Source of the DNA: Chloroflexota bacterium
GTDB lineage: Bacteria; Chloroflexota; Anaerolineae; Anaerolineales; Villigracilaceae
DNA: 56,046 bases
Reading direction: 5' to 3'
NCBI GenBank assembly: GCA_016866195.1
Contig: VGNF01000002.1
Location: 1 to 56,046 of the forward strand
A model generated the notes under the pieces. It ran no database searches and was not told where the DNA came from. It worked only from the letters and a program-made list of their open reading frames with translations. A program made the translations under genes and the position numbers. Shown here in pieces: positions 15,684 to 18,994 of this stretch (position 1 is the first letter of the stretch; each line of letters opens with the position of its first letter).

Positions 15684-15799
15684 GAAGGGGGATTATACCT
15701 TTTCCTGTTGTGTCCCTTTCGTGCTTGATTCCGACTCGAAATCGGAGAAATATATTGATGCAGCTTAGAACCCAATTTTGCATTCCCATTAGAGGTGAA

Positions 15800-15896
15800 G
15801 TCGGTACCCCGAAAAGGCAAACCCACCGTGAGGTGGGGGCGCAAAGTCATGGATCTGCGGTCCGAGGTACAGGATGGCAGACCGCCAGACTGCCGT
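15800..15896 (+). ncRNA. Cyclic di-GMP-I (GEMM-I) riboswitch aptamer
   Basis: GGCAAACC-CACC-GTGA-GGTG-GGGGCGCAAAGTC (GNRA-capped stem and GCGCAAAG core) followed by GCGGTC..AGGATGGCAGACCGC; matches GEMM-I consensus architecture. Confidence 0.9.
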
Positions 15897-15918
15897 TTTT
15901 TTTCGGCAGTCTTTTTTT
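15888..15918 (+). terminator. Intrinsic terminator overlapping 3' side of riboswitch P1
   Basis: GACTGCCG-TTTTTTTT-CGGCAGTC followed by TTTTTTT. Confidence 0.88.
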
Positions 15919-16001
15919 CATGGGAAAGGAGGTTGTATCCGCGATCCAGGGTGTTTAAAAACATTTCCAGTTTCAAAACATTTCACTGTGAGGAGAATGC
16001 C

Positions 16002-18077
16002 ATGCGAATAAAGATATTTAGCGCATTTGTTGTCTTGATCCTGCTGGCGGCCATGCTGCCCATGGCGGCGCTGGCAGACAGCGGCACGGATTTGGTGCCC
16101 ATCGATGTCGGTCCCGAATTGCGCACATGGGAACCAACCCCTGCGCGCATCGTGGGATCGCCGGACGATGTGGATGTTGAAGGTGCATTGGCTGCTGCAG
16201 CCGGCACGCCGTACTTTGATTGCATCATCGATGCAGGCGTGTGGCTGTCGCTCGATGATGTGAATGGCCAGTACTTCTTCGATGTGTTCTACCTGGTGGC
16301 CGAGACCGCCGGCTCCGAGCTGTGGGTGCAGGCGGATTTGAGCTACCCGGAGGGTGACCCGCGCGAACAGCCGATGGTGACTTGTGAGCAGGCGGCCTAT
16401 CTGCTGGGTGAGTTTGACAGTAACATGTATCCGGTCGAAACGAACTTCTTCGGCATACCGGATATCCACAACGGAACCGAATCCCTGCTGGAGGCCTGGG
16501 GGTTTTTCGATCCCGGAACCTTCTACAACGAAGCCGGCCGCCAGGTCGTGCTGGTGTCCAACATCATTGACGATGCGTATTACGACCCCGGCTACCCCAA
16601 CTACATTGCCGGATTTTACTCGCCGTCCTTCGAGGCCTACTTCGATCGAAATATCATGTCGATCGATTCCCATGACTGGGCAAACCGCGTCGGCCCGGAC
16701 GGCTCACGGCCCTATTTGTACGAGAGCGTCTTCGCGCACGAATATCAGCACCTGTTGCACGATGATTATGATTCAGACGAAACCTCGTGGATCAATGAAG
16801 GGCTGTCCATGTTCGCCGAATACCTGACCGGTTATGTGGTGAATGAGGATAACTACACCACCTTCCAGGAATTGCCGGAGAACTCACTCGTGGCTTGGGG
16901 AGATCAGGGCGGCGAGGAGATCGTGGCGGATTACGGCATGGTCTTCCTGTACCAGATGTACCTGTATGAAAAATTTGGCCAGGAGTTCATTCAGGCTGAA
17001 TTCCACAATCAGGATAACGGCATCACCAGCATCAACTCCACGATGGCGATGAACAACAAGTGGAGGAAGAGCAGCTTCGCTGAGACCTACCATGATTTCT
17101 CGGTGGGTGTCCTGATCGATTCGTCCCAGAACAAGTACAAATACGGTTTCAAGCTTTTGGACGTGGGTATTGACGTCGGCACGCCCGCTGCGCCCAATCC
17201 CGAAGCCTACGATACGCCAGGTGCCCCGCCGTGGGGTGCGGATTACATCTGGCTCACCGGAAATCCACGCAGGTTTGGCAAATTTGTCTTCAACGGCGTT
17301 GATCTAAGTCAATCACCCACACCCTGGACCTCCGTGGATGGCATGCTCTACAGCGGCACCGGCGATGAAGTGGACAACTGGGCCATCTTCGAAACCGTGG
17401 GCGGCGGCACATTGACCTTCGATACCTATTGGGATTTGGAGGACTACTGGGATTACGGCTTCGTGCAGGCATCCACGGACGGTGGGCTTACCTGGACCAG
17501 TCTGGAGAATGCCTATACCACGTATGATCATGATCCAAATGCCTATCCGACGGTGATCGAAAACCTGCCCGGAATTACAAGCTGGAGTTGTTACATCGAG
17601 GATGATTGCTTCATCAACGTGAGTTATGACCTGAGCCCGTATGCCGGCCAGGATATCCTGGTTGCCTTCCGCATGATCACCGATTGGGGCACCCATTATG
17701 AGGGCTGGTACATTGACAATGTCTACGTGGACGGCAACCTGATCTCGGATGGCACGGATGCCAGCATCTTCAAGGATATTTCCGAGCTGTTCCCGATCGA
17801 CAACGATTTCACTGTGACCTTTGTCGGGAAGAGGGGCTGGGGCAAGCGGTCTCAATACCGGGTGATCAAGATGAGACTGGATGAGGTAACGGAGGAAGGT
17901 AGGATCTCACTCAAGCGCGTGCTTGGCTCGTCCGACAGCGCTGTGATGATCGTCACCTTCGATGCACCGGAAGGGTATAACGGCTATGCCGATTACAGCT
18001 ACGAGATCATCAACAAATGGGATCACGGCAACAAGATCAATTACAGAAGCAGTCACTCACATCCTGCCGATCACTAG
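16002..18077 (+). CDS. Secreted zinc metalloprotease (M6 immune-inhibitor-A/M30-like)
   Basis: Start trimmed to ATG at 16002 after AGGAGA; signal peptide MRIKIFSAFVVLILLAAMLPMAALA; FAHEYQHLLHDDYDSDETSWINEGLSMFAEYL; C-terminal immune-inhibitor-like beta domain. Confidence 0.87.
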   Translation: MRIKIFSAFVVLILLAAMLPMAALADSGTDLVPIDVGPELRTWEPTPARIVGSPDDVDVEGALAAAAGTPYFDCIIDAGVWLSLDDVNGQYFFDVFYLVAETAGSELWVQADLSYPEGDPREQPMVTCEQAAYLLGEFDSNMYPVETNFFGIPDIHNGTESLLEAWGFFDPGTFYNEAGRQVVLVSNIIDDAYYDPGYPNYIAGFYSPSFEAYFDRNIMSIDSHDWANRVGPDGSRPYLYESVFAHEYQHLLHDDYDSDETSWINEGLSMFAEYLTGYVVNEDNYTTFQELPENSLVAWGDQGGEEIVADYGMVFLYQMYLYEKFGQEFIQAEFHNQDNGITSINSTMAMNNKWRKSSFAETYHDFSVGVLIDSSQNKYKYGFKLLDVGIDVGTPAAPNPEAYDTPGAPPWGADYIWLTGNPRRFGKFVFNGVDLSQSPTPWTSVDGMLYSGTGDEVDNWAIFETVGGGTLTFDTYWDLEDYWDYGFVQASTDGGLTWTSLENAYTTYDHDPNAYPTVIENLPGITSWSCYIEDDCFINVSYDLSPYAGQDILVAFRMITDWGTHYEGWYIDNVYVDGNLISDGTDASIFKDISELFPIDNDFTVTFVGKRGWGKRSQYRVIKMRLDEVTEEGRISLKRVLGSSDSAVMIVTFDAPEGYNGYADYSYEIINKWDHGNKINYRSSHSHPADH

Positions 18078-18127: not shown

Positions 18128-18664
18128 TTAATTCACCGGCACCCAGGGCTGGCCGTCCTGGATTTCAGTGGGATTGACCGGGATCAACGGCAGCGGCGGC
18201 AATTCCGTTCCATGTGCGGGGGAAAAACCGAAACAGCGGATCACCTGGCTGCCCGTGTCTGTGTGATAGGGGTATTTACCGCCCTTTGCCTCCAGCAGGA
18301 TCCGGTAGCCGGGCGTGATCACCTGGACATACATCACCTCCGGCTGCGGGCAGCCGAGTGAGGCATCCGGCCAGTCGACCGGCTGTGTGTCGGCTATGCG
18401 GATTTGATCCCTGTCCATGTTTAGGTATCCGGCCAGGTCGGTTATCGCCTTTTGGGCGATTTCACGCGAGACGATGTTGGCATCCTCTTCCAATGTGGAT
18501 TCCGGTATGGAGATCTCCGGCGTGGATGGGGAGCTGGTCATCGCTGGTTCCAGTACGGTGGCTGGCGTTTCTCTCAGGGAGGGTTCCTCAGTCGCCGCGC
18601 CGCCGCAGGCGGTCAGAATCAGGACAAACAGGACGCCCAGTGCAGTTAAGGGAATGGATTTCAT
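18128..18664 (-). CDS. Hypothetical lipoprotein
   Basis: Lipobox VLILTACGG; RBS AAGGAG before ATG at 18664; conserved-looking domain with no family recognised. Confidence 0.75.
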   Translation of the reverse strand: MKSIPLTALGVLFVLILTACGGAATEEPSLRETPATVLEPAMTSSPSTPEISIPESTLEEDANIVSREIAQKAITDLAGYLNMDRDQIRIADTQPVDWPDASLGCPQPEVMYVQVITPGYRILLEAKGGKYPYHTDTGSQVIRCFGFSPAHGTELPPLPLIPVNPTEIQDGQPWVPVN

Positions 18665-18994
18665 GGATTCTCCTTGGTTTGACAGATGCAATGATCCTGG
18701 AGGATGGACGAATCAGGCATCCTCTTGGTTCCACTGCGGCGGAATCCACCGTGGTGGTTTTCGGCAGTGAATGAACGGAATGAAAGCCATGCGGGGTCGA
18801 TAGCAGCCGCCGGGCCGGGTCTCCGGATGGGATTTGGTGTTGGATCCGTCTGAATTATATCCTCCGGTTTTCGAACCTCCGCCCGGGGCGGGAGGTATTT
18901 TCTTACAAAAAATCTACCCGCCGTTATCCATTTTCTTACACGGTCAATATAACATTGGGCTATTGATATCGATTTGAAAAGGAGAAACAAACCA

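Follow-up and report, generated by a model that had tools for sequence, protein, structure and literature searches.

A c-di-GMP-I riboswitch of predicted ON type before an exported metalloprotease gene in Villigracilaceae (Chloroflexota), and its likely peptidase regulon

Riboswitches of the GEMM-I class have been described in two settings that are close to the locus analyzed in this study. The pilM riboswitch of Geobacter metallireducens, which is the best-described ON switch of its design, senses 3',3'-cGAMP and has a terminator that sequesters the ligand-pairing base C75 (PMC9262584). P1 of pilM forms only with ligand, and P1 was not detected in Cd1 of Clostridioides difficile (PMC9262584). 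The second is the c-di-GMP-I switch located before the C. difficile metalloprotease gene zmpI (PPEP-1/CD2830), which is an OFF switch (PMC6200980). The aptamer class, the ON mechanism and the placement of a c-di-GMP riboswitch before a metalloprotease gene (ZmpI, but with OFF logic) are consequently all known.

We have analyzed a stretch of 56,046 nucleotides from an uncultured Chloroflexota bacterium of the order Anaerolineales, family Villigracilaceae (assembly GCA_016866195.1, contig VGNF01000002.1, forward strand), hereafter the window, in which a GEMM-I aptamer lies before the gene for an exported zinc protease. Like pilM, this leader has GEMM-I architecture, a weak P1 and a terminator that captures the ligand-pairing base (C15893 here), but it differs in its predicted ligand (c-di-GMP rather than cGAMP), in its target (a secreted protease rather than a pilus operon) and in its Chloroflexota host. 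As in the zmpI leader, a c-di-GMP-I aptamer precedes a secreted zinc metalloprotease gene; however, the switch is predicted to be ON here and is OFF in C. difficile, and our searches showed no relationship between the two proteases. We consider it probable that the leader acts as an ON-type c-di-GMP-I riboswitch by transcription attenuation, that it would raise production of the metalloprotease and that it likely belongs to a regulon. The identity of the aptamer, its diagnostic bases, the terminator, their overlap, its conservation and the association with target genes are all read directly from sequence and are described below.

Aptamer and predicted ligand

The sole RNA matched by Rfam in the window is a c-di-GMP-I (GEMM-I) aptamer on the + strand at 15806-15898, which scores 58 bits with RF01051 (cut-off 35). 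An earlier sequence-only reading of this DNA had proposed the GEMM-I class and named a covariance search as its check, and the search bears the proposal out. All three helices of the RF01051 architecture are present. P2 is the hairpin CCCACC-GTGA-GGTGGG at 15822-15837, defined by alignment and by covariation in relatives, with a GNRA loop (GTGA, 15828-15831) and with G15817-C15842 and C15818-G15841 at its base. P3, also placed by alignment, extends over 15845-15891, and the terminator also makes use of its 3' strand, GACT (15888-15891). P1 has only 2 bp, C15810-G15895 and G15811-C15894; its 5' strand (CG, 15810-15811, pairing with 15894-15895) is position-equivalent to P1 of Vc2 and is followed by a four-base J1/2, AAAA, before G20. 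The CG/CG pairing is kept in nearly all ON-type leaders, most of the ON-type relatives having a 3-bp version, UCG/CGA. Judged by these features, the RNA is a real c-di-GMP-I riboswitch.

The sequence-only reading had drawn P1 differently, as CGGTA (15802-15806) paired with TGCCG (15891-15895). These segments are indeed complementary, but they are not the P1 of the aptamer. A helix between them would tie up C15893, which is needed for Watson-Crick pairing with the ligand; no transcript length folded gives this helix a predicted probability above about 0.01, and orthologous leaders carry other letters there. CGG (15802-15804) is instead paired with CCG (15809-15811) in the apo fold predicted for the leader.

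By alignment, the equivalents of Vc2 G20, A47 and G91-C92 in the window are G15816, A15843 and 15892-15893. Positions 20, 47 and 92, which are established ligand contacts, thus carry the letters of the c-di-GMP type and not those of the cGAMP type (A20) or of the "GGC" type (G47). Position 20 is the position of ligand selectivity (PMC9262584), and the G at this residue, which the sequence-only reading had singled out for checking, sets the leader apart from the cGAMP riboswitches of GEMM-Ib. Among 149 aligned family aptamers position 20 is G in 114, A in 30 and C in 5. C, the base of neither c-di-GMP nor cGAMP aptamers, occurs in L140, L141 and L133 and in the ON leader L248. The highest Rfam score of the window is with RF03167 (c-di-GMP-I-GGC; 61.9 bits, above the cut-off of 59), but filing under this variant was rejected because its consensus carries G in place of A47. 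Since the window has A15843 and all 149 aligned family aptamers have A there, we class the window's aptamer with the ordinary c-di-GMP-I aptamers.

The ligand is therefore predicted to be c-di-GMP. That it is instead 3',3'-cGAMP or another dinucleotide, with an otherwise identical mechanism, is improbable, even though pilM senses cGAMP (PMC9262584), about a fifth of the family aptamers have A20 and the top Rfam match is to a variant family. G20 is present in the window and in most ON leaders, and A47 departs from the G of RF03167. The genome that contains the window has nine GGDEF and two EAL matches. The Hypr signature is a serine variant of the GGDEF motif, whereas the GGDEF motifs that could be read in this genome are ordinary GHxxGD and lack that serine.

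A further c-di-GMP-I aptamer, at G000:C16 (L149:7522-7639, minus strand), has no evident overlapping terminator and precedes genes for a membrane protein, an S8 protease and a GGDEF/HD-GYP protein, an arrangement that could possibly allow feedback on c-di-GMP turnover.

Terminator overlap and predicted direction of switching

An intrinsic terminator is located on the + strand at 15887-15918, as the sequence-only reading had already recognized. It is composed of a 5' arm (15887-15895), a T8 loop, a 3' arm (15904-15912) and a T-tract (15912-15918), giving 9 bp with a T7 tail, a folding energy of -15.7 kcal/mol and z = -8.1 relative to dinucleotide shuffles. Compensatory changes in relatives (AT/GC at -4 and TA/CG at -2) support the stem, the top of which changes freely whereas the arm that it has in common with the aptamer is retained. 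This 5' arm consists of the 3' end of P3, G91-C92 and the 3' strand of P1, so the bound aptamer and the terminator are mutually exclusive. A terminator 5' arm that holds the ligand-pairing C together with a P1/P3 strand is the ON-type design of pilM. The ON direction that the sequence-only reading proposed is thus retained, with comparison across 30 loci behind it, but the conflict does not arise from a 5-bp CGGTA/TGCCG helix: what competes with the terminator is the P3 3' strand together with the ligand-contacting G91-C92 and a P1 of 2-3 bp.

Ensemble folding of the growing transcript retained a fold of the P3 type to about 15904, with a terminator probability of 0 at 15904 that rises to 1.0 at 15910. 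These values come from ViennaRNA folding with neither ligand nor tertiary contacts, and the apo fold that it predicts pairs C92 inside an extended P3. In the full-length leader of the window the terminated fold is favored by 14.4 kcal/mol, and it is favored by 14-20 kcal/mol in seven of seven leaders folded. With so large a stability advantage for the terminator, switching must be kinetic, with control exerted before the 3' arm is made.

We propose that aptamer folding can precede transcription of the terminator 3' arm at 15904-15912. When c-di-GMP is bound, C15893 would pair with the ligand, P3 and P1 would be held and 15887-15895 would be unavailable, so that the terminator could not form and polymerase would read on into the protease gene. 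When ligand is absent, 15887-15895 would pair with 15904-15912 and transcription would stop at the T-tract. In the cell the switch would thus be ON, with c-di-GMP giving more secreted metalloprotease.

The same layout is found before orthologous proteases in three other genomes (75, 55 and 34% protein identity), before a neighboring M6 protease gene in two of those three, and before an M28 peptidase gene elsewhere in the window's own genome. The overlap between C92 and the terminator 5' arm is kept in the orthologous leaders and in the M28 leader of the same genome. This conservation bears on the possibility that the aptamer has decayed and that the leader is a constitutive attenuator, terminating whatever the ligand. 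Such decay could be suspected from a P1 of only 2 bp and from a score of 69 bits with R1, our covariance model of the family, which is below most relatives (up to 108). Nevertheless, the leader has intact core residues, with GNRA loop, P3 and C92 all preserved, distant orthologues retain both aptamer and overlap, and P1 is also minimal in the functional relatives Cd1 and pilM (PMC9262584). We consider decay somewhat less probable even than a change of ligand, and a functional ON switch is preferred.

Several further elements of the leaders were observed. No sigma-70 promoter for the window leader was found by consensus search. Just 5' of P1 there is a GAGGT...ACCTC (or GAGG...CCTC) pair in L037, L040, L042 and L254 that could form a hairpin hiding the P1 5' strand, and UCGG/CCGA occupies the same place in the window leader. 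Additionally, an AAGGAGG element at 15926-15932 (+ strand) lies 70 bases 5' of the start codon and has no suitably spaced start codon in the window; many ON-type leaders share this element at a distance of 30-59 bases from C92, which is about 30-45 bases in the window and in leaders such as L037, L242, L238 and L253.

The exported HEYQH protease

The gene downstream of the terminator (16002-18077, + strand) codes for a 691-residue protein, described here from Pfam, an alignment of homologues and a structural model. It starts at ATG 16002, which has a Shine-Dalgarno sequence (GAGGAG, 15990-15995) and is followed by a signal peptide recognized by eye. A GTG start at 15795, giving a 760-codon frame, was rejected since that frame runs through the aptamer. 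The HEYQH motif supplies H246, E247 and H250, which together with E266 are invariant among 28 homologues. An AlphaFold model of moderate confidence (mean pLDDT 68.5) is closest to the M30 protease lugdulysin (7bb8, E = 8.9e-13) and then to InhA2 (4yu5). The HExxH motif, the further conserved glutamate and the zincin-like fold together identify a zincin, at the moderate confidence of the model.

An InhA-like MAM domain (PF20773, E=2.7e-15) is present at residues 450-579 of 691. The sequence-only reading of an exported HEYQH protease with an immune-inhibitor-like C-terminal domain holds for the export signal, the zinc motif and the kind of domain, but this domain ends well before the C-terminus and the Pfam M6 catalytic model (PF05547) gave no match at E 0.1. 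Thus the protein resembles immune inhibitor A (M6) and lugdulysin (M30) in export signal, HExxH zinc site, InhA-like MAM domain and modeled fold, but unlike immune inhibitor A it has no Pfam M6 catalytic match and is not assigned to M6. A MXAN_6640-type match was weak and far below cut-off, a search of PDB sequences returned no match, and a contig search of genomes with the protease sequence found only two relatives. From its sequence features the protein is probably secreted and proteolytically active. Convergent with it on the minus strand is a small lipoprotein-like gene (window 18128-18691), and a similar lipoprotein-like protein adjoins the orthologous protease in L040, so that the neighborhood is partly conserved.

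ON and OFF leaders across the family

Matches to RF01051 occur in 86 of 119 genomes of the same family, with up to 13 in each. We read 148 aptamers, drawn from the 150 best RF01051 matches and a few other loci, using the R1 covariance model in place of a regular-expression finder that had missed about a third of the loci. In 72 of the 148 leaders there is a separate downstream terminator whose 5' arm is complementary to the P3 3' strand, as expected of an OFF layout, and the mean pairing energy of these leaders with their own partners (-17.5) was more favorable than in each of 5000 permutations, which averaged -16.1. An OFF switch of the C. difficile Cd1 kind at the window, with ligand binding promoting termination through an antiterminator in competition with the aptamer, would have these leaders and the OFF control of ZmpI (PMC6200980) as precedents, yet it is the least probable of the readings weighed here, as the window leader lacks any distinct terminator arm farther downstream that could pair with P3, and its one terminator takes up C92 and P1 and cannot coexist with the bound aptamer.

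The ON layout, on which our preferred reading is based, was sought as a pattern in 152 family genomes and was found at 38 places in 35 of them, with none in a reversed control. R1 recovered an aptamer at 22 of the 30 pattern loci checked, one of them degenerate, and the pattern loci combined with leaders found earlier give 30 ON leaders in the family. Not counted are L109, L120 and L154, automatic "ON" calls with weak and poorly placed hairpins, and L190, which has a degenerate aptamer only (30 bits). Outside the family but within the same class, 11 matches to the ON pattern in 329 genomes included none with an aptamer, so the ON layout looks restricted to the family as far as the exact pattern reaches.

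Every ON leader with a readable downstream gene (29 of 29) precedes an exported peptidase, which is of the M6, HExxH/MAM, M28, S8 or S1 type; in the remaining one, L249, the gene has been lost to an insertion. For three of the 29 the assignment is by similarity: the targets of L239 and L254 resemble S8 proteins that were scanned, and that of L244, a truncated gene fragment, resembles the M28 protein at L253. Among 65 non-ON targets there are 20 sortase_YLP, 5 WxL, 5 LysM, 4 beta-helix and 2 SLH proteins and only three peptidases, all S8. The difference (28/28 ON versus 3/65 non-ON) has a Fisher p of ~1e-20, a value that overstates independence because the loci are related by descent and that compares ON leaders sampled by pattern search with non-ON leaders sampled by best Rfam scores. 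The presence of one layout before peptidases of several unrelated families looks like a regulon.

Other arrangements of the aptamer also occur in the family. Tandem c-di-GMP-I doublets in L112, L115, L122, L125, L136, L142, L154 and L168 have A20 in the first aptamer and G20 in the second and mostly precede sortase genes; these may possibly be two-ligand (cGAMP and c-di-GMP) leaders. A module of about 300 bases at G000:C42 (L150:7444-7840, minus strand) is conserved in 34 of 152 family genomes and comprises, in order, a promoter-like TTGAA...TGCAATAAT, three back-to-back GEMM-I aptamers with mostly A, A and G at position 20, and an intrinsic terminator. Its neighbors vary (ruvB in 16 of 30), and in the window's own genome there is no same-strand gene downstream. 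Known c-di-GMP-I triplets are described as gene-regulating, while by its arrangement this module looks like a free-standing cyclic-dinucleotide-binding RNA.

In the open-licence papers searched, we did not find described an ON platform coupled to secreted proteases of many families beside OFF leaders of surface proteins within one bacterial family, and the ON-protease regulon appears to be undescribed. With no exception among the readable genes and five protease families represented, an ON leader predicts both the function of its gene and a testable response to c-di-GMP. Taken together the leaders offer an RNA-encoded wiring diagram of c-di-GMP control for a large and mostly uncultured bacterial group, of which there is no such report in that literature, and the ON protease leader is the sign-reversed counterpart of the ZmpI switch of C. 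difficile. Control of the protease by a second messenger may have a role in a biofilm or community. More tentatively, and with slightly less than even confidence, we suggest that a single messenger acts through two opposite switches built on the same aptamer, with c-di-GMP turning ON a protease regulon of at least five families and turning OFF sortases and surface proteins. High c-di-GMP would then mean extracellular proteolysis and surface remodeling and not adhesion, the reverse of the sign in C. difficile.
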